Part shown: positions 26,952 to 58,113 of the stretch, in pieces
Position numbering within the stretch: position 1 is the first letter of the stretch
How the letters are laid out: each line of letters opens with the position of its first letter
Assembly: GCF_000619805.1 (NCBI RefSeq)
Contig: NZ_JHUV01000008.1
Location: forward strand, 1-64,000
Length of the DNA: 64,000 nt
Direction: 5' to 3'
Origin: Sulfurihydrogenibium subterraneum DSM 15120
GTDB lineage: Bacteria; Aquificota; Aquificia; Aquificales; Hydrogenothermaceae
The notes under the pieces: model-generated
What the model was told of the DNA's origin: nothing
Databases searched by the model: none
What the model saw: only the letters and a program-made list of their open reading frames with translations
Position numbers and translations under genes: made by a program

Positions 26952-26996
26952 AAAGAAAGAAGCTAAAGAGAAAGCAAAACAGATAGACCTTAAAGA

Positions 26997-40310: not shown

Positions 40311-41168
40311 TTAAGGAGCTAACTGTTGGTTATTTAATTGCTGATTATTGCTTGAAAATTTAATTTTTCCCTTTTCTAACATAACTTGATTTTGCGCTCC
40401 ATTAGAAGAAATAACTTTACTTCCCACCGCTATATAAAATTTTGCGTTGTTTACTTCTGGTGTGTTTTTTTGAAAATTCATTTCTGTAAGTAGTAAAATT
40501 TCTCCTTCAAACTCAAAATTTGAGTTATTGTCTAATTCAATAAAATAAGGAGAAGGCTTATTGGTTTGTATTGTAATATTTTCATCATCTATCCACCAAA
40601 ATTTTTTGTCTTCTTCAGTTAATGGTTTGACATCTACTAACTCTAATTCTCCATAACCGTATCTAACATCTGAACCGACATAAATTTTAAATCTCTTTTT
40701 CAAAAAATTATCATCTGTTTTAATTATTCCTATCCAGTGAAGTTGATTTTTTAAGAGTTCTAATTTTTCTATACCTTGGAAATCTTTTTTATATCTTGGT
40801 AATATAAAGTCAATTTCGTGAAGGCTTTTGTCTTTAGCTTTTCTACTGGTTGGCTCAATGGCTGTTTGAACGTAAGTATCTACAAAATAGGCTCTAAATT
40901 CTTCTTCCGAAACATTACCTAAGTAAAACTCTCCATTTTCATAAGAAGGTTTAAGAATAATCTCTCCATCAAGGCTTGGGAAGAAGTTTGATATTGTTTT
41001 AAATTTATTTTCATCGTATGTACCATTTTCTTGATAATGAGCATTTGTTAGAGCCCCCCACATTGTCTGTCCAGAGATAAATAAATCCGTTTCTTTCACT
41101 ACTCCCCACTTGGTAGAGCCTATATGAATAGGTTGATTTTGTTTAAAAATAAGTTTATACCAAGTCAT
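40311..41168 (-). CDS. cmr3: Cmr3-like RAMP (Cas5 group) of the III-C module
   Basis: The last gene of the RAMP module. The ATG at 41168 is preferred (GGGGGATTAAA before it, one base after the cmr5 stop), giving 285 residues. A ferredoxin-like fold start FKQNQPIHIGSTKWG and the glycine-rich YVGSDVRYGYGELELV (about 160-175) are RAMP features. By position and size it is the Cas5-type subunit that would hold the crRNA 5' tag. The C-terminus ends in an unusual repeat NNQQLNNQQLAP. The assignment to Cmr3 comes mostly from gene order. Confidence 0.65.
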   Translation of the reverse strand: MTWYKLIFKQNQPIHIGSTKWGVVKETDLFISGQTMWGALTNAHYQENGTYDENKFKTISNFFPSLDGEIILKPSYENGEFYLGNVSEEEFRAYFVDTYVQTAIEPTSRKAKDKSLHEIDFILPRYKKDFQGIEKLELLKNQLHWIGIIKTDDNFLKKRFKIYVGSDVRYGYGELELVDVKPLTEEDKKFWWIDDENITIQTNKPSPYFIELDNNSNFEFEGEILLLTEMNFQKNTPEVNNAKFYIAVGSKVISSNGAQNQVMLEKGKIKFSSNNQQLNNQQLAP

Positions 41169-41169
41169 T

Positions 41170-41559
41170 TTAATCCCCCAGTGCCTTAGCGTGATAACGA
41201 GCATAAATAAGGGTTTTTTCAAGGAGCTGTTTTAAGAAAAGGAGTTTGTGTAGGTCGTTTGAAATATTTTGAAAGTATTGTTGTTTATTATTTTCATCAA
41301 AGCTAATATCAAGAATTTTGAATAAATCTTTTAACTTGTTTAAAAATATCTTTTCAGGTTCTTTATTATCTTTACCATTCTGAGAAATTATATAAACATA
41401 ATAAGCATATACTCCATTATTATTTAATACTCCCAAAGCTTTATCTATAAGATTTTTTAATTTCTTTTTATTTTGCGAATTTTGAATTTCACTTACCAGC
41501 TCATAAGATACTTTAGCAATAAGAGACTCTATATTTAAGTTATTGGTTTGGTTGCTCAT
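41170..41559 (-). CDS. cmr5: Cmr5-like small subunit (Cas11 group)
   Basis: A 129-residue helical protein; the ATG at 41559 is chosen because AGGAGGTAGCCAAG precedes it. It overlaps the end of cmr4. The C-terminal helix LLEKTLIYARYHAKALGD resembles the end of Cmr5 proteins, and helices fill the whole length. Small subunits form the inner filament contacting the target RNA. Identification is by length, helical content, the C-terminal motif and position. Confidence 0.7.
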   Translation of the reverse strand: MSNQTNNLNIESLIAKVSYELVSEIQNSQNKKKLKNLIDKALGVLNNNGVYAYYVYIISQNGKDNKEPEKIFLNKLKDLFKILDISFDENNKQQYFQNISNDLHKLLFLKQLLEKTLIYARYHAKALGD

Positions 41560-42616
41560 CTTGGCTACCTCCTGTTTGAGAATTGCCATTGATTAGTTGA
41601 ATTTTTAACCTTCCAAAACCTCTGGTAGTCATTCCACCAATACCTAAACTTTCATAGTAATGAGCACTATCTTTTAGAGCTTGTTCCAAATCATCAGCAG
41701 TAGGTAAAGGTTCTATTTTACTATCTAATTCTCCAAATTCTTTATTAAAAATTCTAATACTTCCGTAAAAAATAGTCCCTCTTGGAATAGCTTCGCTTGT
41801 AAATAGAGCTCCTTCTTTTGCAGCTCCCGTTATTGGGTCAATGGAAACAGAAGTTCTAACTTCAAGATTTGAGTTTACAATGTGAGAAAAAAGACTTTCT
41901 GAAACGATAATAATGTCTTCAGATTTAATTGAAAAATTACTAATTTGAGAATCATTGATATTATGACTACCACTAACTTCCAAGTAAAGCCAACCTAAGT
42001 TTAAATGTCCTTCATTTCCATTTTTAGTTTTAATTTTATTTTCTTCAGGAAGACTTTCATTTATTTTTATTTCTTTTAAGATAGAAGCTGTTGTTATCCA
42101 TTTTGTTCCTTTCATAGTAAAGACAGGAAAGAAGAGGATGTTTAAATCACTGAAAAAAATCATCCCTTGCCAGCTTATGTCCTTTTTAGAAAAACCAAAT
42201 CCTTTACAAACTATACAATGTCCACAATGTCCTGTATTATTCTCATCATCTCTCTCTAATTGAGGAGCGTCGTCTTGTCCCGCACAACTAATCTTTAAAA
42301 TTTGATTTCCTACAAAACCTTTCCAGCCGTTAGGTTGAGAATTATTCCAATTATAATTTTTTAATTTTTCTGCTATTGTATTGCCACTTTGATTTTTAAT
42401 TTTGTCAAAAGATGGTTGTTTGCCTTTTAAATCTTTTAATGCTTCTAAAACTACATAATACCTCCAGGTTCCAGCTAAACTGCTACCAGGAATCTTAGGA
42501 ATATTTGTAATAGGGTCTCTAACTATTGTGTTATCCACTCTCCCTATGTTATATCCACCTGTTCCTATATAGATAGGGTCTGTAGCCATAGCATAAACTT
42601 CTAATGTTTTTACCAT
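41540..42616 (-). CDS. cmr4: Cmr4-like RAMP backbone subunit (Cas7 group)
   Basis: A 358-residue Cas7-type backbone protein. The N-terminal YIGTGGYNIGRVDNTIVRD places Asp28 where Cmr4 and Csm3 carry the catalytic aspartate for target RNA cleavage, followed by the family segment KIPGSSLAGTWR. A cysteine/histidine cluster GHCGHCIVCKGFGF (about 128-141) probably binds zinc. The end has LGIGGMTTRGFGRLKI, the glycine-rich RAMP motif. The target-RNA cutting activity of the complex is therefore probably retained. Confidence 0.82.
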   Translation of the reverse strand: MVKTLEVYAMATDPIYIGTGGYNIGRVDNTIVRDPITNIPKIPGSSLAGTWRYYVVLEALKDLKGKQPSFDKIKNQSGNTIAEKLKNYNWNNSQPNGWKGFVGNQILKISCAGQDDAPQLERDDENNTGHCGHCIVCKGFGFSKKDISWQGMIFFSDLNILFFPVFTMKGTKWITTASILKEIKINESLPEENKIKTKNGNEGHLNLGWLYLEVSGSHNINDSQISNFSIKSEDIIIVSESLFSHIVNSNLEVRTSVSIDPITGAAKEGALFTSEAIPRGTIFYGSIRIFNKEFGELDSKIEPLPTADDLEQALKDSAHYYESLGIGGMTTRGFGRLKIQLINGNSQTGGSQDEQPNQ

Positions 42617-42620
42617 TTTT

Positions 42621-45600
42621 TTATACCTCCTTTAGAGCTTTAGACCAAAATTCAAACATATCTAAAAATAATTTTATTTTTTCTATACTTAGCTTACCTA
42701 CAAGTTCTGTGTGAATGTCTTTATTTTCTTCTAAGTCAAAAATAAATCTGATATCTTTTTGTAAATTTTTGTTTTTACCAAGTTCTAAAATGTTAATAAT
42801 TGCTGAGGCAAGTAAGGGATTTATATCTTTATCATAATGTTGGACTTTATCATAAAAGATAGTAATCAATTTGTGTAATTTTGCCGTGTTTGTTTTGTCT
42901 TGGAAAATCTCTTTAAATTTTTTAAACTTATCCCAATATTCTTCTATTTCGTAAGGTCTGTTTGATTTAAGTTGGAAAGCTCTTTTATAGTTTTCCTTCT
43001 CAAGATAAAAAATATCATTTCTTCTTGTATTTGTGTCTAAAAACTCAAAATCAAAAGTATTTGGTATTGCTTGTATATTCTTGTCATTTATAAATTTGTC
43101 TACATCTGAAATCCACTTTTTCCAATTTTCGTCTGGTTTTATGTAAAAATTGTAATCTATATTTTGCTGATTTTCCCAATACAGAGAGTAATATTTTTGA
43201 GTAGAATTACAAAACTCTTCTGGCTTTGAATAATTTGATACTTTTGTATGGTATTTTAAACAGAATTTATCAATTTTTTGATAAAGTTTATCTATATTTT
43301 TGACGTCTCTTCTTATTTTTCGTAATGCACTTAATCCAATGTATAAAGGTTTTTTGTAGTCTTGGATAATTATGCCTATGTGGATAGGAAGTTTTCCGTA
43401 TACATATTTAAATTCTTTGTTATACTCTTGTATCACTAAATCTATAAATTTTGGGACATATTCAGCAGGGATAATTACTTGCCAACCAGCAGGAGTTGGG
43501 TCTGTGATTGAGGCATATGGCTTGTAAGAAACGATTTCTATACTTTTTATGTTGATTTCTTCCAGTGACTCGTCTTTTTTGTTTTCTTTTTCGTTGTAAG
43601 TATAAAAATTGATATTTATAGGATTGGTGTTATTTTTTAAACTTTCTACGATTTGATTGAGTTGTGAGTTAATTTCTTCTGTTTTTTCTGAGTTTGTTTT
43701 ACTATTTTTAAGTTCTTTAAGTAATTTCTTGTTATTGTAAGAATCTAAGTTGTAAGCATCTAAAAAGTCTTCTATAGAGCTTATGAGATATATTTTATTT
43801 TCATTTTTTTCTGCCCAATATAATAAACCTTTTTCATCAATTAGCTCTCTGCTTTTATCAAGCTTTTGTAAATCTGCTTGGAAAGCTAATCTTTTTCTTC
43901 TCCACTCAGGAATGTCTAACCTGTTTTCATCTAACACTTGTTTTTTTATATTTTCAAAAAACTCCTGTGTAGTTTCCCAAATTCTTCTTAATCTTGCAGG
44001 AGATGGATTTTTTCTAAGTAAAAATTGGAGCAATAAGGTAGCTAAAAATTCTATATCTTTATCTGTTAGATTTTGCCAATCAATAGTTCTATTTCCAAAA
44101 TCTATAAGGTTTTTATTTGATAAGTTGCTTATAATAAACTTTTCCCATTCATTACCGATTGTTCTTTCCAAAAGAATACTTTTAATAAAATCTTCTAAAG
44201 TTATTCTATTTCTTAAACTTTTATCTACATAATCTTTGATAACTGTATTTTCCAGTTTTTTTTGTCTATTGTTTTGATTTTGTAAGTCATTAGCCAAGTC
44301 AGATAAAACTAAACTCCAGTTAGCTTGATTAATCAGCAAACTATTCAGCATATTTCCATTTAGCCAATCCTTAAGCTCAAACTTTAACGATACCAGAGCT
44401 ATTCTATCGTTTTTGTCTTTTATTTCACCAACCCATATTGTTTCAGAGTCTAAATTCTGTATCCAATTTTTCACTTGAGTGTTATATACTCTTTCACTAC
44501 AAACATCGCAAACAGTTTGAGAGCTTTTAATACTCTTATCTTCTTCATAAATCAAACGAATTTTACATAGAGGACAGATACCAATGGCATTTGAAGTATT
44601 ATTTATATTTTGCATTAATGTTTTAGTTATATCTTTAGTTATATCGTCATTAATCTTTAATTTTAAAAAGTTCTTCTTAGCCTCTTCAAGTAGATAGCCT
44701 AAGTTCATTAAACCTCTTGAAGCTTTTGTTAAAACTATAGCAGGATAAACCTCACCTTCTAACTTTCTATTAAAAATTTCTACTATCCTTTTCTCAATAT
44801 CATTCAAATCTGGTTTCAAAGAAGCTAAATCATTACTTCCATCTTGCCCTATATTTTCTCCAACAATAAAATAAATCCCAGTCTCATCTCTATAAATTTC
44901 ATTTCCTATCGGATATTCGACCTCTAAAAGCTCTTTTATCTCATTATCTATTTCTTTGGCTCTTTCTCTATACCATTCAATAGAAGCAAGTTTAAAACCT
45001 TTCTCTGCCAAGCCTAATTTATCGTATTGAATTCCTAATATTCTCCATTTTATGGAAGAAGGATTTATAAAATAATTATGAGTATTTATATTCTGTAAAC
45101 TTGTTTCCATCACTAACTGAGATAACACTGCCTTAAACATAGAAGCAGTCATATAAGCTTGATCCCAAAGACTTACATCATTTATGGGAAATCTACTGTC
45201 GCTAAGTAGATTAGAATACCATATTTTAATTTCACTTATAATAAAATTCCTTATTTTTGCCCAATCAGGATTATTTAAGTAGGTGTTCTTTGATAGAAAA
45301 TCATAGAAATTCTGAAAAAAAGTTTGTCTTCTTATGTCAAAATCCTTTTCTTCAATCTGCTTTTTAAAACTTCCAAATGCATTTGATAACCACAATGGCG
45401 GTTTTAATTGTATATTTGGAGCTCCTTTATCTATACCAGAGTTTATATTTTCACAACCTCTGAAAAAAATTTTTTTGATAAATTCCTTTTTTGAAGCATT
45501 ACCTTTAAAAAACTCAACCCAATTAACTTCTTTTGTATCCTTATTATTTTCATCTTTTCTAACAATAAAAGGAAAAATGACTTTTGTGTTTTTTATGAAA

Positions 45601-45863
45601 TTATCTAAATGATATTTTTCTATCTCATGTTCAAAGGGAGTTTTATTAATTTCTGTTTGATTTTCATGATAATCTTCATAACTATTAAAGACTTTAAATC
45701 CAAAAGTGCTTTTAAAACAATTCTCATCAACAGAAAAATGAGGAATTTTGTCTTTTTCTTTCCAAAAACCTATATGTGTTTTACCTAAATTAAAGAGTAA
45801 AGCTCCAATTTCCGCTTTTAAAATTTCATCTTTATTATTTTTTATCCTATCTAATCCTGACAT
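42621..45863 (-). CDS. cas10: Cas10 of subtype III-C (Csx11-like), with degenerate active sites
   Basis: A 1080-residue large subunit. The ATG at 45863 follows GAGGAG and overlaps cmr6 by 13 bases. A zinc-ribbon CPLC...CDVC lies at about 427-455. The region near 788-805 reads ITDPTPAGWQVIIPAEY where active Cas10 has AGGDDxxxxxPA, so the GGDD that makes cyclic oligoadenylate is missing. The N-terminal helix reads ALLFNLGKTHIGF where a Cas10 HD domain has LLHDIGK, so the HD nuclease pair also seems lost. The large size, six-gene RAMP neighbourhood and missing GGDD match the Csx11 family and subtype III-C. Confidence 0.82.
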   Translation of the reverse strand: MSGLDRIKNNKDEILKAEIGALLFNLGKTHIGFWKEKDKIPHFSVDENCFKSTFGFKVFNSYEDYHENQTEINKTPFEHEIEKYHLDNFIKNTKVIFPFIVRKDENNKDTKEVNWVEFFKGNASKKEFIKKIFFRGCENINSGIDKGAPNIQLKPPLWLSNAFGSFKKQIEEKDFDIRRQTFFQNFYDFLSKNTYLNNPDWAKIRNFIISEIKIWYSNLLSDSRFPINDVSLWDQAYMTASMFKAVLSQLVMETSLQNINTHNYFINPSSIKWRILGIQYDKLGLAEKGFKLASIEWYRERAKEIDNEIKELLEVEYPIGNEIYRDETGIYFIVGENIGQDGSNDLASLKPDLNDIEKRIVEIFNRKLEGEVYPAIVLTKASRGLMNLGYLLEEAKKNFLKLKINDDITKDITKTLMQNINNTSNAIGICPLCKIRLIYEEDKSIKSSQTVCDVCSERVYNTQVKNWIQNLDSETIWVGEIKDKNDRIALVSLKFELKDWLNGNMLNSLLINQANWSLVLSDLANDLQNQNNRQKKLENTVIKDYVDKSLRNRITLEDFIKSILLERTIGNEWEKFIISNLSNKNLIDFGNRTIDWQNLTDKDIEFLATLLLQFLLRKNPSPARLRRIWETTQEFFENIKKQVLDENRLDIPEWRRKRLAFQADLQKLDKSRELIDEKGLLYWAEKNENKIYLISSIEDFLDAYNLDSYNNKKLLKELKNSKTNSEKTEEINSQLNQIVESLKNNTNPININFYTYNEKENKKDESLEEINIKSIEIVSYKPYASITDPTPAGWQVIIPAEYVPKFIDLVIQEYNKEFKYVYGKLPIHIGIIIQDYKKPLYIGLSALRKIRRDVKNIDKLYQKIDKFCLKYHTKVSNYSKPEEFCNSTQKYYSLYWENQQNIDYNFYIKPDENWKKWISDVDKFINDKNIQAIPNTFDFEFLDTNTRRNDIFYLEKENYKRAFQLKSNRPYEIEEYWDKFKKFKEIFQDKTNTAKLHKLITIFYDKVQHYDKDINPLLASAIINILELGKNKNLQKDIRFIFDLEENKDIHTELVGKLSIEKIKLFLDMFEFWSKALKEV

Positions 45864-47056
45864 TTTTTCCACTCCTCAGGAATGTCTAATTCTTCGTTTA
45901 AGAAAACTTTTTTGTTTTCTATCTTAAACTTTCCCCAACCGAGTTTAATTTTAGCTCCTATTCCTTGTTTGGACAAAATTGCAACAGCTACAGATAGATT
46001 GTTTAAATCTTTTTCAGCTTCAGCTTTTAGCTCTTCATCAGGTTTTAAGACTCCATCAAAAGGAATGTAAATCAGCTGGAAAATTCCTTCAGTTCCCTTT
46101 GGGACAACCTCGTAATGTATAGGGTTGGTTCCAGCTCTTTTTCTTCTGTCGTGAGGGTTTATTATTTCAAGTGAAAGCCTATCAAAGTAAGTTGGATAGA
46201 AAATAGCTCTTCCTTTGTGGGTTTGGAATTCGGAGGGTAATTTACTATCGCTTGTTTTTGCAGATAATTTATCTCTAAGTATTTGAAAAAGCTCTTCTTT
46301 ATTGTTCTTTCCTTTAACTTCTTTTATTAAATTACTATCTATCTTAAGTCCGAGTTCAAATAGCATAAATTTTAATAAACTATCTTTGGCTTTATTTAGG
46401 TCTCCTGATTTGCCAAATACATAACTCTCAATAGTTTTAATACTTTCCGACCCAGCTCCAAATACTCTTAAGAAGCTCTCTATTTTTTCTTTATTATTTT
46501 GAAAATCTTCTCTAAACAACTCTCTAAAGGCACTTGCTAAAGCTCCCTTCCACCCCGAGCCTCTAACCATTGGAACTTTAAAGTTTGTTTCTTTTAAAAT
46601 GGGATTTTGGATAATGTAAAATTCATCGTCATCTTTGGAGAAATAAGGAGCTTCTAACTGAAATTTAAACCAAATAGCAAAGGAGTATTTAGGAAGTTTA
46701 TTAACATACTCTTGAAGATTGTTTAGCTGAGATTCTTCGTAAATTCCAGAGATTTTTTGAATGATTTGAATGTCTTTATTATCAAATTCTACATATTTCT
46801 TTTCTTTACCTATAATCTCATTTTTTAGCCAGTTTAAGGGAAAATCTTTTAGAGTTTCGTTTGATTTATATGTCGAATTTTTTCTAATATCTTGCCTGAT
46901 AAAAGGAAAATCATTCTTCAATGAGTAAAAGTCGCTATAATTTTTTATTTTATCTTCACTTTTTGGTTTGAAATAATACTTACAATAAGCTATATACTCT
47001 GCTAAACTCTGAACATTTTTTGGATTTATTTCTAACAGTGCTTCAAATTTAGCCAT
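45851..47056 (-). CDS. cmr6: Cmr6-like RAMP (Cas7 group)
   Basis: A 401-residue RAMP protein, started at the ATG at 47056 (AGGTG upstream). Features are PMVRGSGWKGALASAFREL (about 164-182, the SxxKGxxR-like motif of Cas7 relatives), FLRVFGAGSES, RAIFYPTYFDRLS and the C-terminal KQGIGAKIKLGWGKFKI. Order and motifs suggest the Cmr6-type subunit capping the backbone near the 3' end of the crRNA. It could also be scored as a divergent Csm5-like protein. Confidence 0.65.
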   Translation of the reverse strand: MAKFEALLEINPKNVQSLAEYIAYCKYYFKPKSEDKIKNYSDFYSLKNDFPFIRQDIRKNSTYKSNETLKDFPLNWLKNEIIGKEKKYVEFDNKDIQIIQKISGIYEESQLNNLQEYVNKLPKYSFAIWFKFQLEAPYFSKDDDEFYIIQNPILKETNFKVPMVRGSGWKGALASAFRELFREDFQNNKEKIESFLRVFGAGSESIKTIESYVFGKSGDLNKAKDSLLKFMLFELGLKIDSNLIKEVKGKNNKEELFQILRDKLSAKTSDSKLPSEFQTHKGRAIFYPTYFDRLSLEIINPHDRRKRAGTNPIHYEVVPKGTEGIFQLIYIPFDGVLKPDEELKAEAEKDLNNLSVAVAILSKQGIGAKIKLGWGKFKIENKKVFLNEELDIPEEWKKCQD

Positions 47057-47074
47057 CTTTATCACCTGTTTTCT

Positions 47075-48088
47075 CTAATCTAAATTTAATAACCCCACAA
47101 TAGATAAAAATCCACCTTTAAATTCTTTCCCCTCTTTGTAAATATAAGGAAGGATTTTTGAGCCTTGAGGGACATAAGGCATTTGTTTTGGATTACCCGT
47201 TTTACCAAAAATTTTATGTCTTTCTTCATCGTTTTCTCTAAAACTAGCTCTTTCTTGGGATTTTTGTTGAATAAGAATTTTTATAATTTCTTTAAAATCA
47301 CTATTTGAGCCTATAGGGTGTAGAACTCTTATTTTATTTTCTTTTTTTGTTAGATTTTCAAATTCATTTTCAAATTCAATAAATTCTGTAAAATTTATTT
47401 TTTTATACTTGTGAAATATTGAAAAATTAAGCTCTTCTCTTCTCCAACCCTCTATTTCTTCTTCATTTTCCTCTATCCTTTTTATTTCCAATCTCCCATA
47501 TCCAATGTTCCATTTACCTCCCCAAAATCCATATTTATCCATAAAGGTTAAGAGTGGGAAAAAGATTGGCTCTATAATTTCTTCTTCCACATTAAAAATT
47601 ACAGTAAAGTCTCCGTAAAAACCTTTTTCGAAATACCAAACTGGGATTCTATTGTTATGTTCTAATTCAGGAAAATCTATTTTTCCAGTAGGAAATCTAT
47701 AATTATCAAATTCCTTTATATTTTCAATATTTTCAATTTCTATCAGACTTTTCCAGTTTGTAGTTCCGAAAATAATGGAAGGTAATGGAATTTCTTGTTC
47801 CAATAAACATTTTATTTTTGCTTGAAAATCGCTTCCTTCTCTTAGAAGACAATCTTGAAAATCTTTTCTATTAACTTCTTTTTCAAACCTTCCTTCTTTA
47901 AAAGAAATGACCCCATTTTTATCTCTTTTAATTTCACATAATCCTGAAAAGTAGCAAATTACTTCAAACCAAAATCTTAAGCTCCCTATCAATGAAGATG
48001 GTTTTATCTCCTTGTTATCTCCCCACGCATCTCCAGTCCAGAGAGGAGTAATGGTTTTAAAAGTTATTTCAACTTGTTTTTTTGCCAT
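47075..48088 (-). CDS. cmr1: Cmr1-like RAMP (Cas7 group)
   Basis: A 337-residue protein starting AKKQVEITFKTITPLWTGDA, then IKPSSLIGSLRFWFEVI (about 28-44), which is the Cmr1 signature of a substrate-binding loop plus LRFW helix. A second RAMP domain has WGGKWNIGYGRLEI (about 190-203). Cmr1 is a subunit at the 3' end of the type III-B/C complex. The ATG follows GAGGTG and overlaps the cas6 end by 20 bases. Confidence 0.85.
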   Translation of the reverse strand: MAKKQVEITFKTITPLWTGDAWGDNKEIKPSSLIGSLRFWFEVICYFSGLCEIKRDKNGVISFKEGRFEKEVNRKDFQDCLLREGSDFQAKIKCLLEQEIPLPSIIFGTTNWKSLIEIENIENIKEFDNYRFPTGKIDFPELEHNNRIPVWYFEKGFYGDFTVIFNVEEEIIEPIFFPLLTFMDKYGFWGGKWNIGYGRLEIKRIEENEEEIEGWRREELNFSIFHKYKKINFTEFIEFENEFENLTKKENKIRVLHPIGSNSDFKEIIKILIQQKSQERASFRENDEERHKIFGKTGNPKQMPYVPQGSKILPYIYKEGKEFKGGFLSIVGLLNLD

Positions 48089-48827
48089 TGTTTAACACCT
48101 CTATCATTCCAAAACCTTGTGAATTTTTTGCACCTAATCCAGCATCAAAAACAACTTTAAAAAGTTCTGGGTTGGTTTTTATTTTGAATGTTCCTTCGTA
48201 TGCTTCTATTGGAAAATCTTTGTATTTTAATAATACTTTTTTTGTGGTTATAGGTTCTATTTCAAAAGGAAAATCTCCAATTTCTTTGTTAGTTATTATC
48301 TGGTATTTTTTTCTTAGATTTTCTTTTAACAGCTGTTTAAATTCTTGTTCAGATGGAGAATAGTATCTGTAGTATTTTTTACTGTTTTCAAATGTTTTGT
48401 AGGCTGTTATTGGAGATAGGGTTTTTATTGTGAATTCTTCTTTTAAATCATGGTTTGGAAGGACTTCTATACTTTCAAGGTAAAGTGTATTTTTATCTAA
48501 CATAACTTCTTCATTTTTTAAAAAAGTTTCTCCCCAGTTTTTTGTAAAATCGCCTATAGCTGAAGATATGTATATAGAGATTGGAGTTTTGTATTTTATG
48601 CTTTTTGTTTTATTGTTTTCTTTTATGAGAGTGTAATGTTGAGATTGTATTTTTGAAAATGTAAAAAGTTTAAACTGTCTTTTATGATAAAAAAATCCTA
48701 TATCGTGAAGGAATTTAGCTATTTCTTTTGGGAGATTATTATAAAGCATACTTTGAACTATATGATTGTGATGTATCGGAAGAGTGATGTAATCTCTATC
48801 TGAAATCAGCTGTATCTTGATCCTCAC
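48069..48827 (-). CDS. cas6: Cas6 pre-crRNA endoribonuclease (shared by the I-B and III-C modules)
   Basis: A 252-residue RAMP endonuclease that cuts the array transcript inside each repeat, leaving an 8-base 5' tag (here ATTGAAAC). The N-terminal ferredoxin fold has LPIHHNHIVQSMLYNNL with histidines near 19-22 that may be catalytic. The C-terminal glycine-rich loop is GAKNSQGFGMIEVL (about 231-244). The start is GTG behind AGGAT. It is the only intact cas6 beside the array and lies between the I-B genes and the III-C genes. A second, different cas6 is at 62734-63531. Confidence 0.9.
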   Translation of the reverse strand: MRIKIQLISDRDYITLPIHHNHIVQSMLYNNLPKEIAKFLHDIGFFYHKRQFKLFTFSKIQSQHYTLIKENNKTKSIKYKTPISIYISSAIGDFTKNWGETFLKNEEVMLDKNTLYLESIEVLPNHDLKEEFTIKTLSPITAYKTFENSKKYYRYYSPSEQEFKQLLKENLRKKYQIITNKEIGDFPFEIEPITTKKVLLKYKDFPIEAYEGTFKIKTNPELFKVVFDAGLGAKNSQGFGMIEVLNNGKKTS

Positions 48828-48896: not shown

Positions 48897-50126
48897 ATTT
48901 CAATTCCTCATAGGCACGCTAAAAACAGTTCATCTCTATAAAATACTCACTTTCTACTTTGAGTTTCAATTCCTCATAGGCACGCTAAAAACATTCACAA
49001 ATGCATTTAAAAGAATTAGGGCATACAGTTTCAATTCCTCATAGGCACGCTAAAAACGAGACTTTCTATGTAAATAGCTTCTTCAAACGCAGGAAGTTTC
49101 AATTCCTCATAGGCACGCTAAAAACTGCCTGTTCTGCGTAGTAGTGTTCTTTTTCGTTTTCGTTTCAATTCCTCATAGGCACGCTAAAAACTAAATCTAT
49201 TGTCTCAATTAGCATTCTTCTACAATCATGTTTCAATTCCTCATAGGCACGCTAAAAACTGGCTTTCTTTTTCAGCTTGAGCTACAGAGTAGTAAGTTTC
49301 AATTCCTCATAGGCACGCTAAAAACAAGTTTTCTCATACTCTACTTTTAAACTGTCGTCAAGTTTCAATTCCTCATAGGCACGCTAAAAACCTAGCTACA
49401 TTCCTTGATAAGACAATTGATAACAATTGTTTCAATTCCTCATAGGCACGCTAAAAACGGATTGCAGTTGACACACAAAACACCAATTGGGTAGGTTTCA
49501 ATTCCTCATAGGCACGCTAAAAACAAGTTTTCTCATACTCTACTTTTAAACTGTCGTCAAGTTTCAATTCCTCATAGGCACGCTAAAAACTATGCAGACC
49601 CAGCTTCAAAGGAAACTTTAGAATATTGTTTCAATTCCTCATAGGCACGCTAAAAACAAAATAGAAGTCGAAGACATAGATAACTGTTATTCCGGTTTCA
49701 ATTCCTCATAGGCACGCTAAAAACTCTTTCAAGGGAGCTCTATTGAAAGTGCCACAGAAAGTTTCAATTCCTCATAGGCACGCTAAAAACTCGCTTTCAT
49801 CTTTTTGAAGTCCATCGTTGTCTATAGTTTCAATTCCTCATAGGCACGCTAAAAACTCGTCAGAATATTCAGCTCCAAACATTTGAGCTATGTTTCAATT
49901 CCTCATAGGCACGCTAAAAACCATCAATAATAACTATTGGTTTATCTTTGTTTACATAGTTTCAATTCCTCATAGGCACGCTAAAAACGTAAATTTTATT
50001 TGTTCTATACTTATCAAGATTATCGTTTCAATTCCTCATAGGCACGCTAAAAACTTGTTTCAATAGATGTATCTAATTTCGCACTACTTAGTATATGTTT
50101 CAATTCCTCATAGGCACGCTAAAAAC
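48897..50126 (-). CRISPR. CRISPR array, 19 repeats and 18 spacers
   Basis: The 30-base repeat runs, on the plus strand, from GTTTCAATTCCTCATAGG to CACGCTAAAAAC; read from the leader on the minus strand it begins GTTTTTAGCG and ends ATTGAAAC, the usual 5' tag. Repeat starts are 48897, 48963, 49028, 49096, 49162, 49230, 49296, 49362, 49429, 49495, 49561, 49628, 49695, 49761, 49827, 49892, 49959, 50025 and 50097. Only the repeat at 48897, farthest from the leader, shows a change (its last tag base). Spacers are 35-38 bases except the leader-proximal one (42). Spacers 49326-49361 and 49525-49560 are identical. Confidence 0.98.
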
Positions 50127-50214: not shown

Positions 50215-50233
50215 CAGAAATGTAAAAATTCCA

Positions 50234-50330: not shown

Positions 50331-50374
50331 CTCAAAAACTGCCAATTTCGATAGGACGACGACTGCAATTCGGT

Positions 50375-50641
50375 TTAAAAGAAAATATCTTCTGATGAAG
50401 GCTTGCTAATACCAAATTCATCTCTTTCGTAATATTTTTTAGTTCTAAATTTATAAACCAATACAGAGTCTTCATCTTTATTCATAATGGACTTTAACTC
50501 ATCTATAAGTATTCTGTAATTTGCCTCTGTTATCTCCCCTTCAAATACACTGTTTTGAACGTGAGTCAGATATTTTTTACAAATTTTATGGAACTTACTA
50601 ACTCTCTTTTCATTAGCATCGTAAACTAAAATGATAAACAT
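50375..50641 (-). CDS. cas2: Cas2 spacer-integration subunit
   Basis: An 88-residue ferredoxin-fold protein. It starts MFIILVYDANEKRVSKFHKI, with the metal-site aspartate at position 8, and has LTHVQNSVFEGEIT. Cas2 bridges two Cas1 dimers in the spacer-integrating complex. It is the last gene of the I-B operon, one base after cas1, and 248 bases from the array. Confidence 0.96.
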   Translation of the reverse strand: MFIILVYDANEKRVSKFHKICKKYLTHVQNSVFEGEITEANYRILIDELKSIMNKDEDSVLVYKFRTKKYYERDEFGISKPSSEDIFF

Positions 50642-50642
50642 A

Positions 50643-51632
50643 TCACCACTCTGCTATAAAGGGCTTGTAAATTTCTTCATCTAAAAAATGTTTATAGAGT
50701 TTATAGCATTCAAGCCTTATTAATCTTCGGTAAGATACATTTCCAAGATTCTTATACTTTATTGTTGTAAATAACTTTTCTTCAAAATCCTTTATAAAAA
50801 TTTGTTTTCCTTTTTCATTCAAATAAGAAAATTCAACATCTTCTTCAAAATGTTCTATTTTTATTTTTCCTTTATTAACTAAACTAAAAATCACTCTATC
50901 AACAATTATAGGCTTAAAAATTTCAGAAATATCTAAATTTAGAGTAAAACTTCTCTGATTTGTTTCATGAAGGTAGCCAATTCTTGGGTCTAAATGTGTC
51001 CTGTATATTTGACTAAGAACGGTTGTATAGAGCAGAGAATTTCCAAAGCTTATTAAAGCATTTAAAGGATTATTAGGTGGTCTTTTTGTCCTTTTGTCAA
51101 AATAAAAGCTTTCAGAATTCAGAATAATATTAAAAGATTCATAATATGATTTTCTTATTTCTCCTTCTAATGCCATAAGTGAAGGAATGTCTTGTTTTAA
51201 ATCTATTTCATTTTTCTTTTCTTCTATAAACTTTACATAATCTTTTATATCATCTTTTGATTTTTGATAGTATTTCAGATTTTTCAGTATGTTTTCTACT
51301 GCACCTTTCACAAAACTCTTTGCTAAAAATAATCTTTCTTTTATTTTTAAATAAAATTCTGCCTGTTTAAGTGTTAACAAACCAGAATTCAAATATTCCC
51401 TTGGATAATAAGCTCCCACATAGTATCCGTGATAATTATAAAAGAAAAGTGGTATGCTGTTTTTTGTAAAAAATTCTAAAACTCTTTTGTTTAAATCAAC
51501 CTCTCCAAATATATGTATTTCAGAAATGGTATTCACTGGAATTATTCTTTTATCATTTTCTCTTTCAAAATAAATTGTATTATCTTTTCTTCGTAAAACA
51601 CCATTATTAAACAGATATACAGCTTTCTTCAT
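50643..51632 (-). CDS. cas1: Cas1 integrase (type I-B)
   Basis: A 329-residue integrase. From the ATG at 51632 (GGAG upstream), it has an N-terminal beta domain, then the catalytic helices with ALEGEIRKSYYE (glutamate), HLDPRIGYLHETN (histidine) and ISEIFKPIIVDRVIF (acidic residue). It starts two bases after the cas4 stop. It is the only Cas1 in the window, so both interference modules would depend on it for new spacers. Confidence 0.96.
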   Translation of the reverse strand: MKKAVYLFNNGVLRRKDNTIYFERENDKRIIPVNTISEIHIFGEVDLNKRVLEFFTKNSIPLFFYNYHGYYVGAYYPREYLNSGLLTLKQAEFYLKIKERLFLAKSFVKGAVENILKNLKYYQKSKDDIKDYVKFIEEKKNEIDLKQDIPSLMALEGEIRKSYYESFNIILNSESFYFDKRTKRPPNNPLNALISFGNSLLYTTVLSQIYRTHLDPRIGYLHETNQRSFTLNLDISEIFKPIIVDRVIFSLVNKGKIKIEHFEEDVEFSYLNEKGKQIFIKDFEEKLFTTIKYKNLGNVSYRRLIRLECYKLYKHFLDEEIYKPFIAEW

Positions 51633-51634
51633 TT

Positions 51635-52138
51635 TTAGCTCCAGCACATATCTTTATAGGCACAATTTTTACAGTAGGGTATTTTTTCAGGTTTAGGAGG
51701 TTTAGGAAGTTTTAAAATTTCTGTTATATCTTTTATTGCTTTTTCTATCTTATATTCTATCTCTTTTGTAAGAATTATTTTTTCTTTTTTCCTCTCTTCT
51801 GGAATTAAAAGCTCCCCTACAAATTCTATACCTTTTTCTTTTTTAAGATAGTACAAATAAAATGCAATTTGCATTCTGGCACTTTGAATAAATTTTGAAG
51901 ATTTTTTAATTTCACCAATAACTTTCTTATTGGAGAGAATATCTATTTTTATTGTGTTATCTATAAAAATTTCTTTCTTTTCACCTTTATAAAACAACTC
52001 ATGAATATGTTTTCCTAAAATTAAAAAATCATTTTCTTGATCAGCTTCTATTGAATGACCTATTAGCCAAACTTCTCTTTGACAAATATAATAATACCAT
52101 ATAAGTGTTCCGTTTATTTTGCTTGTTTCAATACTCAA
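51635..52138 (-). CDS. cas4: Cas4 nuclease
   Basis: A 167-residue RecB-like iron-sulfur nuclease that trims prespacers and helps choose the PAM. One cysteine is in YYYICQREVWL (about 16-26). The other three close the protein in YCKNCAYKDMC (about 156-166). The RecB motifs GKHIHELFY and GEIKKSSKFIQSARMQ lie between. It overlaps cas3 by 11 bases. Confidence 0.94.
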   Translation of the reverse strand: MSIETSKINGTLIWYYYICQREVWLIGHSIEADQENDFLILGKHIHELFYKGEKKEIFIDNTIKIDILSNKKVIGEIKKSSKFIQSARMQIAFYLYYLKKEKGIEFVGELLIPEERKKEKIILTKEIEYKIEKAIKDITEILKLPKPPKPEKIPYCKNCAYKDMCWS

Positions 52139-54449
52139 AAAATAAATCTCCCTTTACTTTAAATCCTGTTTCTCTATCGTAATAGTTTTCTAGTTCTGAT
52201 AATGGAACATAATAAAAATAGTTTTCTTGGTGTGGAGAGTTGTCTTTTACAGGAACTGATACTACATATTCATAAAAATCTTTTTTGATAATATCAAATG
52301 CTTTTTTCCTTTCAAAAATATCCTTTATATCCCAGATTGCTTTATATTTGTTCCATATCTCAACAGCTTTTTCATCAAGTTGAATAAACACATCTTGTTT
52401 ATAATCATCTTCTTCTATTAGAACAAAGTCTTTAATAGATGTAATTTTATTCTTTTCTTTTTCTGCTAAAAATACCAATCCAGAAGCAAGTTTTATTAAC
52501 TCTATAGATTCTGCTTGAGATATCTTTTGATTTACAATTTCGTAATACCTGCTGACTAAATCTTTTATCTCTCTTTCATCGTATGAGCTTTTAGTTAATA
52601 TTTTTTTAGTTGCATTAAGTAAAACAATATCGTAGATATAAGAAGAGTAATACCGATTATTTTTTCCATCATAAAGATTTATAATGTAAATAATACCCTT
52701 TTCTTTTAAAGCTTCTCTATTACATCTACCTGCAGACTGTATAATGCTATCAAGAGGTGCAAAATCTCTGTAAACAACATCAAAATCAACGTCTACACCT
52801 GCTTCTATAAGCTGAGTAGAAACAGCTATTCTCTTATTTTTAGCTTTAAGAATTTCTATCCTTTCTAATCTTTCCTTAGGGACTACGTGGGTAGATAGGT
52901 ATATAACTTCTTCTGGATATAATTCTTTTAGATAATTATAAACCTCTTTAGCTGATGAAACTGTATTTAAAATAAATAGATAACTTTTGTCATTCTGAAG
53001 ATGTAGAGAGTTGCAAAATTCCAATATAGTTTTAGGTTTTAAATCTACTTCTATTTTGTACCTGTTTACTTGATTAAAATAACTTTCTTCGCGTATAAGA
53101 TTTCTGCCGTTTATAAACATATTAGGTAAAGTTGCGGTAGTGTAAATTACGTAAAAATTAAACTTTTCTGATAAAGAGTTAAGTAGCTGTTTAATTAATA
53201 ACCAAGAACGTGTGGGAATACTCTGGACTTCATCTAAAATTATTACTGAATTTGTAAACTTATGAAACTTTCTTATCATTTTGTTTTTGTTTCCTAATAA
53301 TGAGTAAAAAAATTGCATAAATGTGGTTATAGTTATTTTACTGTTAAATCCTTCTATAAGTATTCTGGAGCTGTCATAATCTAAAGTCTGTTCTTCATCT
53401 TTATAATCAAATCCAGTTAGATGATGATACTTAAGTAAAATACTGTTGTCTATATTGATACTATTATTCATTAAAACATTCTCTATAACTTTATGATTTT
53501 GTTCTATTACGGATAAAAACGGTAAAACATAAATTATCCTTAAATCTTTACCTTTTTCTTGTTTAAACTTATCTGCTATTTTTAGAGCATATTTAAAAGA
53601 AAGAAGAGTTTTACCCATTCCTGTTGGTAGATTAAGGGTATATATTTTCTGATTTAAGTCTATTTCTTGATTTTCTATCTCGTTGTAGGCTTTTTCTCTT
53701 AGTTTGTATAACGAGTTGTTTTGCTTATTTAAAGTTTTTACGTAATTATCAACTATAAATGGTTTTATATCTTGTTGTTTAAATAAAATACTTTTGTCTG
53801 TTTTTATTCCTACATCAGATTTATCAGCATCTAAAAGCAAAGAATAAAAAAGCAAAGTATCTATATAATATTCTAAGTTTTGTTTTTCTCTTATTTCTTT
53901 TCTTACAAATGTTTTTAATTCTCTTAATAATTTTTGTATCTGTTTTAAGTCAATCTCGTTGAAATCAAAAAGAAAAATCTCTTTATTTTCAAATGTTAGA
54001 TTACTAAAAAATTTTTTAAACTTCTCCTTATCTATTGATTTTATCTGTTTTTCTAAAATTTCTACTTCGCTATCATCTAACGTAAGGTCATACATAAAAT
54101 CTTCTAAGTTTGAGTGATGTCTTTTAGGTAGTATATAAGATAGTATAAGTAAGAATTTATCATTAATGTTTTGACTTTTTAAATATCTATCTGTAAGGTA
54201 TAAACTTATTATAGCTCCTAAAAGTGAATGTTTTCTTAATTCTTTATTTACAGAATTATCTCCTTGAATGTATTTTTGAAAGTATTCTGTAGCTTTTCCT
54301 AAATCGTGAGAGAATAAGATTATAGAAAGGACGTCGTTTAATACTTTATTTTTTTCAATATTCTGTGCAAATTTTAATCCAAGTTCTAAAACATTTGATA
54401 TATGTTCTTCCATAAATCTTTCAGGATGAGAAAATAAACCTGAATTCAT
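52128..54449 (-). CDS. cas3: Cas3 helicase-nuclease (type I-B)
   Basis: A 773-residue effector. The N-terminal HD nuclease domain has FSHDLGKATEYFQ (His48-Asp49). The SF2 helicase follows, with LPTGMGKTLLSF (about 275-286), ILDEVQS (about 402) and QSAGRCNREALKEKG (motif VI). It unwinds and degrades DNA found by Cascade. All motifs look intact. It overlaps cas5 as ATGA. Confidence 0.96.
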   Translation of the reverse strand: MNSGLFSHPERFMEEHISNVLELGLKFAQNIEKNKVLNDVLSIILFSHDLGKATEYFQKYIQGDNSVNKELRKHSLLGAIISLYLTDRYLKSQNINDKFLLILSYILPKRHHSNLEDFMYDLTLDDSEVEILEKQIKSIDKEKFKKFFSNLTFENKEIFLFDFNEIDLKQIQKLLRELKTFVRKEIREKQNLEYYIDTLLFYSLLLDADKSDVGIKTDKSILFKQQDIKPFIVDNYVKTLNKQNNSLYKLREKAYNEIENQEIDLNQKIYTLNLPTGMGKTLLSFKYALKIADKFKQEKGKDLRIIYVLPFLSVIEQNHKVIENVLMNNSINIDNSILLKYHHLTGFDYKDEEQTLDYDSSRILIEGFNSKITITTFMQFFYSLLGNKNKMIRKFHKFTNSVIILDEVQSIPTRSWLLIKQLLNSLSEKFNFYVIYTTATLPNMFINGRNLIREESYFNQVNRYKIEVDLKPKTILEFCNSLHLQNDKSYLFILNTVSSAKEVYNYLKELYPEEVIYLSTHVVPKERLERIEILKAKNKRIAVSTQLIEAGVDVDFDVVYRDFAPLDSIIQSAGRCNREALKEKGIIYIINLYDGKNNRYYSSYIYDIVLLNATKKILTKSSYDEREIKDLVSRYYEIVNQKISQAESIELIKLASGLVFLAEKEKNKITSIKDFVLIEEDDYKQDVFIQLDEKAVEIWNKYKAIWDIKDIFERKKAFDIIKKDFYEYVVSVPVKDNSPHQENYFYYVPLSELENYYDRETGFKVKGDLFFEY

Positions 54450-55138
54450 GGCTTTAAAAATGATATGATTTTATTTTCTACTTTATAAACATTTTTAAAT
54501 CTACCTTCTATACTGTCTCCTTTTAACTCCATAACAACATCTTTATAGCTTCTAACTATTCTGTTTTCTTCCATATCCAAAGGTATTTTTTCTTTGAAGT
54601 ATCTTTTACCTTCAGTTATTTCTATACTTTCAATATTTTCATTTAATATGACAGTGTTTACATAGTCAGATTGAGGTAAAGGCTGAATTTCATATAATCC
54701 AACATATCTAAAGTTTGAAATAAGATTTGCAAGTCCTAATGATAGAGTATAAAAGTTTTTCCCCTCTTGTATTTTTTCTTTTAATTCCCTAAAGAGAGAC
54801 TCATCTTTTAGGTTTATATATAACCTATAATGTGGATTTTTTAGAAATTCTGTTCTAATCTGAGTTCTATTTTTTATTTTTGTAAAATTTTCCTTAGTGT
54901 CTATGTAGTTTAATGTAATTCTAGTTTTTTTTACAGGGTTTATAATCTGTATTGCGATATCTGAAGTATTTGCGTTTATATACTTTAAATATACATTTTT
55001 ATCTAGTCCAAGAACAGCTCCTATCATACCAAAAATAGAAGTAGGGGGAGGTATGGAGAATGTCAGAGGAGATGAAGTAGTATAAAACTTTTTAAAATGT
55101 CCAAAGTCTCCCCATATATCAAAAACAAGTACTTGCAT
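54446..55138 (-). CDS. cas5: Cas5 of type I-B (Cas5h)
   Basis: A 230-residue RAMP that caps the 5' end of the crRNA in Cascade. The N-terminal VLVFDIWGDFGHFKKFYT and SPLTFSIPPPTSIFGMIGAV segments are characteristic of the Cas5 fold in subtype I-B (Hmari/Csh). It lies between cas7 (12 bases) and cas3 (overlapping). Confidence 0.94.
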   Translation of the reverse strand: MQVLVFDIWGDFGHFKKFYTTSSPLTFSIPPPTSIFGMIGAVLGLDKNVYLKYINANTSDIAIQIINPVKKTRITLNYIDTKENFTKIKNRTQIRTEFLKNPHYRLYINLKDESLFRELKEKIQEGKNFYTLSLGLANLISNFRYVGLYEIQPLPQSDYVNTVILNENIESIEITEGKRYFKEKIPLDMEENRIVRSYKDVVMELKGDSIEGRFKNVYKVENKIISFLKP

Positions 55139-55150
55139 TATTCTAATCCT

Positions 55151-56053
55151 TTATAAATTAATTTCTTCAAACTTTACAAAATCTAATTTTAACTCTCTGT
55201 TTAATTTTAAATTTCTATCCACTTTAAAAAGAACCTTTTCAATCTTGTCTTTATTTTCCTCTATAACTTCTAAAAGTTTATCTATGTTGAGTATAAAGTC
55301 ATCGGTTGACCTTATTTCTTCGTCCTGTTTGTCAGACTCTATTTTTATATATCTGTGTAGCTCCCCAATGTGATAGTAGAGGTTTTCTTTGTAAATAATC
55401 TCTATTAATAATCTTGGACTGTGTTCTGTTTTTGACCTCGTTATTAAGTTTTTTGTTCCATACCATAAAGCTTCTTTTAGCAGTTCTAAGTCCTCATCTT
55501 TTAAGTTTGTATGTTTAGCAGCGTTTTCGTTTGCTACACCGTGAAAAGCAATAAAGGAATAAGGTAATATCCATTCTTCTCTAAAAGTTTTTCCACTTTT
55601 TCCTTTATCGGAAGCAAAAGCTCCTGTTCCTTTGATATACTCAAGTTTTACTCTATGTAAAGACTGTCCCATATTAAACTGTACAGGACCTGTAAATGTT
55701 ACAGAATTGTCTTTTGATTTTCCAGTTTCAACAGGAATAGTTGCTCCAAAGAGTCTAACGTCAATACACTCATTTAGTATTCTTACTGGATTATTTTCAA
55801 AATTTTTTGCCCTTGCTTTTGCATCTTGAAGATTACCGTTTTCTAATCCTTCCCTTATAAAAATCTCTAAATTTTTAAAGTTATAGAGATAGTCTCTTAC
55901 TGTTCTTTTTAGTCTTACATCTGTTACTATGTTTCTTCCTGTTTCTTCGTCTATTCTTGGTTTGTTATCATCGTTTGGGTCTCCGTTTGGATTACCAAAG
56001 CTAACATCGTATAGGAATAGATATTCTCTACGATTTTTAATTGTTTCACCCAT
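55151..56053 (-). CDS. cas7: Cas7 of type I-B (Csh2)
   Basis: The 300-residue backbone subunit of Cascade. Signatures are YLFLYDVSFGNPNGDPNDDNK (about 11-30), IVTDVRLKRTVRDYL, RLFGATIPVE and TGPVQFNMGQSLHRV, all typical of Csh2. AAAGGAGAG supports the ATG at 56053. A 73-base gap and a nucleotidyltransferase gene separate it from cas8b, although the two are normally adjacent. Confidence 0.96.
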   Translation of the reverse strand: MGETIKNRREYLFLYDVSFGNPNGDPNDDNKPRIDEETGRNIVTDVRLKRTVRDYLYNFKNLEIFIREGLENGNLQDAKARAKNFENNPVRILNECIDVRLFGATIPVETGKSKDNSVTFTGPVQFNMGQSLHRVKLEYIKGTGAFASDKGKSGKTFREEWILPYSFIAFHGVANENAAKHTNLKDEDLELLKEALWYGTKNLITRSKTEHSPRLLIEIIYKENLYYHIGELHRYIKIESDKQDEEIRSTDDFILNIDKLLEVIEENKDKIEKVLFKVDRNLKLNRELKLDFVKFEEINL

Positions 56054-56085
56054 GGTTTCTCTCCTTTATAGTAAGTTTTTATTTT

Positions 56086-56130
56086 TCAAATTAATTTTGC
56101 TTTTTCTAAATTTTCTTTTAATGTCCTCAA
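56086..56130 (-). pseudogene. 15-codon remnant, possibly of a HEPN partner gene
   Basis: A frame that starts TTG over the nucleotidyltransferase stop codon encodes LRTLKENLEKAKLI and then stops. MNT-type nucleotidyltransferases are normally followed by a helical HEPN or DUF86 partner that begins with similar amphipathic helices, and start-stop overlap is common in such pairs. It could be the stub of a lost partner, or chance. Confidence 0.25.
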
Positions 56131-56432
56131 ATTAAAACTCCTGTTTCTTTGGCTGTTTTATAAATAGTTTTTTCCTTTTTATAAGGAGTTTTTACAACTA
56201 AATCAACTTTTCTTTCTATTCCTTTAATCTCAAGTTTAGCCAAAAATTTTAGCTCTTCCTCTAAAGATACATTTTTATCAGTTTCTATAAAAATATCTAT
56301 ATCTCCACCTTTTTTATTAAGGTCGGTTCTACTACCAAAGATATAAACTTTCGCATTTTCACCAAAAATTTCTTTTGCAGCTTCTTTTATTATTTTTATT
56401 TCCTCTTCAGACAGTCTTACTTTCGGCTTCAT
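56127..56432 (-). CDS. MNT-type nucleotidyltransferase inside the cas operon
   Basis: A 101-residue minimal nucleotidyltransferase. The catalytic pattern is intact: GSRTDLNKKGGDIDIFIE (about 33-50) with GSR at 33-35, Asp44 and Asp46, and a third acidic residue in KVDLVV (about 86). These small enzymes usually act as antitoxins, AMPylating a HEPN RNase partner. Here the gene starts inside the last 26 bases of cas8b and precedes cas7, so it is translated with the Cascade genes. No partner toxin is present. Confidence 0.85.
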   Translation of the reverse strand: MKPKVRLSEEEIKIIKEAAKEIFGENAKVYIFGSRTDLNKKGGDIDIFIETDKNVSLEEELKFLAKLEIKGIERKVDLVVKTPYKKEKTIYKTAKETGVLI

Positions 56433-58113
56433 CGTTTTCCCATTTTGTATAAATTATATTTTCAACTTCCTTGTGTAGTGCCATTCCAGAAGCAAAGTAG
56501 AAATTTATCTCATCTATTGATAAGCCAAATTTTTCCTGAGATAAAAGGTTCTTAGATATCTCTTGTGCAAGTTCTTGTTTTCCTCTGTCAAACCTTTCAT
56601 ATTCCATAAGTTTATTTACTACTTTCGGAAACAATCCTTTAACATCTTTTTCATTAATTTTTAAACCTTTTAGATTCTTAAAAAATGGAGTAGATTTTCT
56701 TTCATACCCTTGAATGTCCAAAAGCATTTGTGTTAAAGCTCCAAGTAAGAAAATTCCTCTTTTTGCGAGAGTATTCAAAGATTTTCCTGTTTTTTCATAA
56801 ACTTCATCGAATTTTGTTTTCTCCATCTTTTCCTCCTCAATTTTTAATAAACCAAGTTCTTCAAAAAATCTGACATTCATAAGGGCATCTATTACTGTGT
56901 TAGTGATATTATTTCCATTTAAAAATTCATCTCTTATTTTTCTGTTAAAAATCTGAAGGAGAGTTTGAAAATCAAGCTTTCCACCTCTGAAAATCTTATC
57001 TAATACTTCAAAAAATAATTTATTAAACTTTTCTAAAAATTTTATAACTTTTTCAAGTGTATAATTCTGTCCGTAAATTTTATCTATTTTTGCTTTTGTA
57101 TCAAGAATATAATGAATTCGTGATGGTAAAACATCTTCTATTAAAAGTAAAATCTTTTCTGCACTGTTATCTTTTTCTAAGAAAAGAAAATAAAAACTTA
57201 AACCATCCTTATAGTCTTTAAGTAGGTCTAAAATATAATTTTCATCTTCAACATGACTTTTTGCTAAGTTTTTATCTTTTAAAGTGATATTTTTTCTCGT
57301 TTTAGATAGAATATCTACATACTCCCCTAAAATCTCTTCTGTATTTAAGATAATATTTGGAATTAGATAATAACTTTTCCCGTAAAAACTAAACTTTAAA
57401 TTTTCTTCTATGTATTTCCTACCATAATCTACTTTCAAATAACAAGATTTACATACAGGAAAATTTCTCCAAGCTTTATCTTCTTTAAATCCTCCAGCTA
57501 TATATCCAGGTTTATCTAAAGTATAAAATTTATACATTCTTGACGTTGTAAAAACCTCATCTTTTATCTCGCCACATAAACTACAAGGATAGTTCTTAGC
57601 AGAGAATTTTCTTAAATCTGACAAGTATTCTGTTAGAAAAATTCCTTTAAAGTTTGGACTTTCTATTTCATAGAGATACTTATTATCAAATTTAACTGTT
57701 ATGATTAGTCCCTCGTCTTTTTTGATACTATTTTTTATCTCTTCTATATATTTCAATATCTTATCTTTGTTGGATTTGAGTTGATTGTATATTTTGTCAA
57801 AAGGAGTAATTTTTTTCCGAGATTCAAACCATTTAATTATTTTATTTTCTAATGTTTTTTTAGGCTCGGTAATTCTTGAAGTTGGTGTAAAATCTGAACC
57901 GTTAGAAGATTTCCTTCTATAAAGATAGATTCTCCAGTTATTTTTTTTAAAATCTTCTATTGTAATGTTTGAAAAGTTAAAATCTTTATCGAATTCTAAT
58001 ACAACAACTTTATTGTAATTTCCTGAATTAGGATTTTCTAGTAAAATGTCTATTTCACTTTTATTTTCTTTCCGTAATATAAACTCCCCTAAATTTTTTA
58101 CAGCTTCTATCAT
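56407..58113 (-). CDS. cas8b: Cas8b (Csh1) large subunit of Cascade
   Basis: The 568-residue large subunit of type I-B Cascade, responsible for PAM recognition and R-loop stabilisation. It belongs to the Csh1/TM1802 group: a central zinc motif CSLCGEIKDEVF (about 178-189) with the second pair CKSC near 222-225, and a helical C-terminal part. It is the first gene of the operon. A TATAAT box (58144-58149) lies 31 bases before the ATG. Confidence 0.88.
   Translation of the reverse strand: MIEAVKNLGEFILRKENKSEIDILLENPNSGNYNKVVVLEFDKDFNFSNITIEDFKKNNWRIYLYRRKSSNGSDFTPTSRITEPKKTLENKIIKWFESRKKITPFDKIYNQLKSNKDKILKYIEEIKNSIKKDEGLIITVKFDNKYLYEIESPNFKGIFLTEYLSDLRKFSAKNYPCSLCGEIKDEVFTTSRMYKFYTLDKPGYIAGGFKEDKAWRNFPVCKSCYLKVDYGRKYIEENLKFSFYGKSYYLIPNIILNTEEILGEYVDILSKTRKNITLKDKNLAKSHVEDENYILDLLKDYKDGLSFYFLFLEKDNSAEKILLLIEDVLPSRIHYILDTKAKIDKIYGQNYTLEKVIKFLEKFNKLFFEVLDKIFRGGKLDFQTLLQIFNRKIRDEFLNGNNITNTVIDALMNVRFFEELGLLKIEEEKMEKTKFDEVYEKTGKSLNTLAKRGIFLLGALTQMLLDIQGYERKSTPFFKNLKGLKINEKDVKGLFPKVVNKLMEYERFDRGKQELAQEISKNLLSQEKFGLSIDEINFYFASGMALHKEVENIIYTKWENDEAESKTV

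Follow-up and report, generated by a model that had tools for sequence, protein, structure and literature searches.

Inactivation of the MTH326-like Cas10 that defines CRISPR subtype III-C (also known by its large subunit, Csx11) was described in 2011 (Makarova 2011, PMC3150331). A later survey found that all III-C Cas10s are without the cyclase site, that only half have a recognisable HD and that the surveyed III-C systems are also without known effectors (PMC11229360). The 2025 classification places III-C among the inactivated-cyclase subtypes, with arrays missing from most III-C loci (PMC12669027). As these surveys and the classification already cover III-C inactivation, the locus described here adds one more example of a known subtype in an already known state. 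No functional study of III-C was found in the literature searched. The use of type I crRNAs by a type III effector has precedent (PMC5576922).

The window, by which we mean the whole 64,000-nucleotide stretch of DNA that was analysed, contains a seven-gene minus-strand operon at 40311-48827 (cas6-cmr1-cmr6-cas10-cmr4-cmr5-cmr3). The genes overlap or nearly do so, and all seven reading frames are intact:

48069..48827, minus strand: cas6, pre-crRNA endoribonuclease, first gene of the operon (TIGR01877 166 bits, cut-off 58.65; PADLOC Cas6b 3.9e-73)
47075..48088, minus strand: cmr1, type A of two Cmr1 types (PADLOC Cmr1 428 bits)
45851..47065, minus strand: cmr6 (PADLOC Cmr6 302 bits)
42621..45872 (GTG start) or 42621..45863 (ATG start, 1080 aa), minus strand: cas10 (Csx11), 1080-1083 aa (TIGR02682; PADLOC Cas10c)
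41540..42616, minus strand: cmr4, backbone RNase subunit (TIGR02580 109 bits, cut-off 87)
41170..41589, minus strand: cmr5, small subunit of III-C type (PADLOC Cmr5 CAS-III-C 2.1e-36)
40311..41222, minus strand: cmr3, likely ATG start at 41168 (PADLOC Cmr3 239 bits)

PADLOC models name 7/7 of these genes, in agreement with a preliminary description that had placed the same seven in one minus-strand operon, and Cas10, Cmr1, Cmr4 and Cas6 also score above their NCBIfam cut-offs. The preliminary description had proposed a search of Cas10 against Csx11 profiles as a check on its assignment to the Csx11 type of subtype III-C; TIGR02682 (cas_csx11) matched over the full length with 841 bits against a cut-off of 249 (E 1.4e-252), which cannot be chance, and PADLOC Cas10c scored 458 bits. 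No Pfam domain was recognisable in Cas10. With a Csx11/Cas10c large subunit and a backbone of Cmr1, 3, 4, 5 and 6 present, the gene content identifies the locus almost certainly as subtype III-C with a complete effector module.

Residues 793-798 of Cas10 read TPAGWQ, and the N-terminal HD position reads LLFNLGKTH. When a Csx11 alignment was compared by hhalign with Aquificota Cmr2 proteins that have GGDD, residues 784-879 aligned to Cmr2 palm 2 (E 3.5e-5 / 3.6e-4); the probability was 72% versus 37% in two column settings, and the register, identical in both, places GGDD at T793-P794-A795-G796. At the cyclase position the relatives have (T/S)P(A/V/I/T/K)(G/N/S)(W/Y)Q, and in neither register does any relative covering the region place an acidic pair (DD) under GGDD. 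At the N-terminus the HD dyad is replaced by FN and the remaining HD ligands are not conserved: of the two versions of this segment described below, the FN type has H33 as its sole conserved His and the LY type has none, and no multi-His site at the HD position is conserved among the aligned relatives. Both motif readings of the preliminary description, TPAGWQ at the position of AGGDD and LLFNLGK in place of LLHDIGK, thus stand, and these alignments make it very likely that the cyclase and HD sites are both inactive. An AlphaFold prediction of Cas10 as a single sequence (pLDDT 32) was discarded, and neither Cas10 alone nor the alignment had a meaningful match among solved structures.

Csx11 was found above cut-off in 16/136 Aquificota genomes, and of the 15 Aquificota III-C loci whose N-terminus could be read, 14 are without HD. 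The motif is kept in relative G123 (L052; IHDLGK) and in the Csx11 of an Anabaena plasmid (LHDWDK). Since the Csx11 of a Thermus plasmid (L060) carries LHMAGK, HD was probably lost more than once. The preliminary description was right that polymerase inactivation is known for III-C Cas10s, which the published surveys extend to the whole subtype, and overstated both how rare the subtype is and how exceptional its double loss. We rejected the double loss as unusual within III-C because the published surveys (subtype-wide loss of the cyclase, about half without HD) and the Aquificota relatives show the same losses. The Thermus plasmid locus (L060 4482-14542) is III-C-like with two transposase interruptions, and two Csx11 proteins scanned against viral contigs had no relatives there.

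The Aquificota genome search showed the operon to be retained across many genera. As the preliminary description had noted for the window, Asp28 of Cmr4 (VDN motif) is kept; it is invariant in 15/15 sequences, window included. Compared with same-genus G098, dN/dS was ~0.16 for cas6, 0.21 for cmr6 and cmr4, 0.27 for cmr3, 0.28 for cas10 and 0.46 for cmr5 (cmr1 was left out), indicating purifying selection on the operon across the six genes compared. Along Cas10, identity to G098 has its minimum at the N-terminus (42%) and its maximum over the dead palm and C-terminus (72-82%); the palm region, at 77-82%, is conserved best and appears to be retained for a non-catalytic role. Broken frames occur among the relatives: cmr1 is in two frames in G098 (L044 16437-17461), and cas10 is in three in G078 (L053 8105-11696).

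The poorly conserved N-terminus of Cas10 behaves as a discrete unit, delimited from an identity table, trees and AU tests:

45093..45806 (bounds approximate), minus strand: N-terminal Cas10 cassette, FN type, ~residues 23-260, containing the HD position

The FN type (FNLGK) is found in the window and seven relatives (L047, L048, L049, L050, L051, L053, L056), and the motif LLFNLGKTH is common to these eight genomes; the LY type, mostly a shorter segment without HD, is found in six (L044, L045, L046, L054, L055, L057). Cas10s of the window and L044 are 90% identical at residues 1-22, 10-37% at 23-155 and 50-79% from ~260, while the window and L049 are 45-82% identical at 23-155 and less alike than window and L044 in the C-terminal half. 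Conversely, L045 and L049 share 80-85% over the C-terminal half and 25-40% at 23-155, and L045 resembles L044 at 121-155 (84%). When a tree was built from residue 262 onwards (the body), the window grouped with L044 (98/98) and L045 with L049/L050 (100/100); forcing the FN types together on this tree was rejected (AU p 2.7e-47, log-likelihood gap 219), and cassette type changes 4 times on it versus once on the cassette tree. The tree of Cmr6, an independent gene, likewise rejects the FN grouping (p 7e-55, log-likelihood gap 230, 6 changes). Because the two types were named after the data had been inspected, these AU p-values overstate the case, and the log-likelihood gaps are still large. The mosaic as an assembly artefact was rejected: the L044 genome is a single contig and several others are in 2-5 contigs.

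Cmr1 also falls into two types, A and B, ~30% identical to each other; the Cmr6 tree rejects a single type B clade (p 0.0036), and Cmr1 type does not co-vary with Cas10 cassette type. Taken together, the comparisons indicate that an HD-less cassette in two versions has been exchanged repeatedly among Cas10s that are otherwise close relatives, and that Cmr1 has undergone similar exchange. Tentatively, the dead N-terminal segment may be a functional exchangeable cassette, swapped by recombination independently of the likewise swapped Cmr1, perhaps because phage inhibitors select for change or because swapping alters what the complex recruits. No published description of this exchange was found in the literature searched; it is a new observation and the most interesting lead from this locus.

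Immediately upstream of the III-C operon, at 48897-58113, lie an array and a complete I-B locus that the preliminary description did not mention. The I-B gene set comprises cas3, cas5b, cas7b and cas8b with cas1, cas2 and cas4, so that III-C and I-B form one locus in the window; a csx1 remnant lies further off:

48897..50126, minus strand (inferred crRNA direction): CRISPR array, 19 repeats and 18 spacers (17 distinct), repeat GTTTTTAGCGTGCCTATGAGGAATTGAAAC
50375..52138, minus strand: cas2, cas1 and cas4, adaptation module
52128..54449, minus strand: cas3 of I-B, HD motif SHDLGK and helicase (PADLOC Cas3b 664 bits; Pfam helicase and Cas3 C-terminal domains)
54446..58113, minus strand: cas5b, cas7b, small nucleotidyltransferase and cas8b, I-B Cascade
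25987..26252, plus strand: csx1 HEPN-domain fragment, cut by an IS remnant (PF09455 29 bits)

The small nucleotidyltransferase gene is at 56127-56432, between cas7b and cas8b, and similar gene pairs occur in L049 (14918-17322). Close to a stretch resembling a transposase (61487-62592) there is a second, separate cas6 at 62734-63531 (PADLOC Cas6b 234 bits). III-C genes continue straight into I-B Cascade genes in L047, L048, L049 and L052. The pairing is neither obligatory nor universal, as several relatives carry III-C without I-B nearby: in L045, L046, L051, L053 and L054 the III-C modules stand alone with only housekeeping genes beside them, and neither an ancillary effector nor a candidate nuclease was found linked to them.

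The Cmr2-type Cas10 model (TIGR02577) had no match in the genome, and the Csm1 model had a single match, below cut-off, on a GGDEF gene. Matches to PF22335 (palm 2) elsewhere were rejected as extra Cas10s; they are GGDEF proteins. The genome has no Csx1 CARF domain, and in the PF09651 search the controls gave no match. No cOA effector was found near the window operon or the stand-alone III-C loci. The broken csx1 HEPN fragment lies beside decayed CRISPR units (26924-27091), which suggests an earlier loss of a cOA pathway; the fragment is possibly the trace of a lost cOA effector, from this or another system.

We infer that the array is read from the minus strand because ATTGAAAC is at the repeat 3' end as a handle on that strand, the repeat at 48897 is degenerate and relatives have the same orientation; arrays beside III-C in L047 and L049 share the repeat family and direction. 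One 36-nt spacer is present twice (49326-49361 and 49525-49560), suggesting local duplication or repeated acquisition. The repeat of this array also occurs at the ends of G000 contigs C1 (38093-38187) and C9 (66-95), and more array sequence is therefore probably missing from the assembly. When all of the array was searched against a phage database, there were only weak matches, to Paenibacillus and Listeria phages, and these were set aside. A convincing phage target was found for one spacer alone, spacer 14 (49791-49826), which matches a gene for a tail protein (phrog_52) at 33/36 positions in IMG/VR contig L105 and 32/36 in a prophage-like region of G037; across the IMG/VR contigs and the Aquificota prophage-like region, matches lie at L105:8851-8886, L098:1500-1535 and L106:10099-10134. 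If the array direction holds, the spacer 14 crRNA is sense to the tail gene, fits DNA targeting and could not guide cleavage of tail-gene mRNA, which favours its use by I-B as far as a single spacer can tell. The opposite reading of the array would reverse the conclusion.

On balance, these features point to an RNA-guided, RNA-cleaving complex in which Cas10 is an inert scaffold and crRNAs are shared with I-B; cleavage and sharing are both predictions. The preliminary description had likewise proposed a complex that acts by RNA cleavage through Cmr4, with no cyclic oligoadenylate made and no DNA cut by Cas10, and this mechanism is plausible. Cas6 would process the transcript of the adjoining array, and the crRNAs would be loaded onto I-B Cascade and the III-C backbone alike. 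Complementary phage transcripts would be cut at regular intervals by Cmr4, whose RNA cleavage is probably the main activity, and Cas10 would do no more than support the complex at its foot and sense RNA. Phage DNA would be destroyed by I-B Cas3, and III-C would therefore be a second line for guides antisense to transcripts. I-B DNA interference may carry much of the immunity of the array, because the adjacent I-B system has its own Cas3 and the sole phage-matching crRNA is sense.

Other readings assign Cas10 or the module a different part. Cas10 could retain an output, with the FN/LY cassette or a rebuilt palm recruiting or activating a nuclease encoded elsewhere, or with an uncharacterised activity. 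Within Cas10 the dead palm shows the strongest conservation, LLFNLGKTH is common to eight genomes, and the swapping of the cassette as a unit suggests some function; however, assembly of the complex could explain the conservation, the stand-alone loci have no linked candidate nuclease and Cas10 has no recognisable Pfam domain, so that we regard a retained output as unlikely. Production of a second messenger from a displaced active site is scarcely credible: nothing speaks positively for it beyond the low quality of the only structure prediction, and it is opposed by the lack of an acidic pair where GGDD aligns, whichever register is used, by the genome without a Csx1 CARF effector and by the state of the surveyed III-C systems, without cyclase site and known effectors (PMC11229360).

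Instead of clearing phage as an RNase, the module might chiefly regulate by binding RNA or interfere passively as a complex. Loss of both Cas10 outputs, the lack of an array at most III-C loci elsewhere (PMC12669027) and the sense orientation of the sole matched crRNA would fit this, but the invariance of the Cmr4 Asp in 15/15 sequences and the adjacent cas6, array and adaptation genes render it rather improbable. Decay of III-C, with all work done by I-B, would account for the broken cas10 of G078, the broken cmr1 of G098 and the poorly conserved Cas10 N-terminus. Against decay stand the seven intact frames in the window, dN values well under dS for every operon gene but cmr1 and the maintenance of the operon in many genera, and we consider it quite improbable.

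Among type III subtypes, III-C has been little studied and works independently of cOA signalling. With its dead Cas10 sites, its intact Cmr4, an adjoining I-B system and no further type III system found, this thermophile locus is a clean place to ask whether cleavage of target RNA alone immunises; a functional I-B partner would provide DNA cleavage. The swapped cassette raises the testable question of why a dead domain diversified instead of being lost.

Compared with known systems, the proposed arrangement shares the model of a type III backup with shared guides with the Marinomonas III-B system that uses type I-F crRNAs (PMC5576922); that system carries out transcription-dependent DNA interference, whereas the window Cas10 is without the HD residues. 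Subtypes III-F, III-G and III-H likewise have a cyclase-inactive Cas10 and have lost the cOA pathway, but their Cas10 families differ; III-F generally retains HD (PMC11229360), and III-G and III-H are without adaptation modules (PMC12669027). Subtype III-B (Cmr) has the same backbone subunits and Cmr4 catalytic Asp, but its Cas10 (Cmr2) has an active GGDD, and the Cmr2 model matches nothing in the window genome. The locus is closest to subtype III-C itself, with which it shares the inactive-palm Cas10, Cmr1/3/4/5/6, a Cmr5 of III-C type and a family match over the full length, and, with about half of III-C, the loss of HD. Unlike most III-C loci, which have no array, this locus adds a cas6, an array, adaptation genes and an I-B system alongside.
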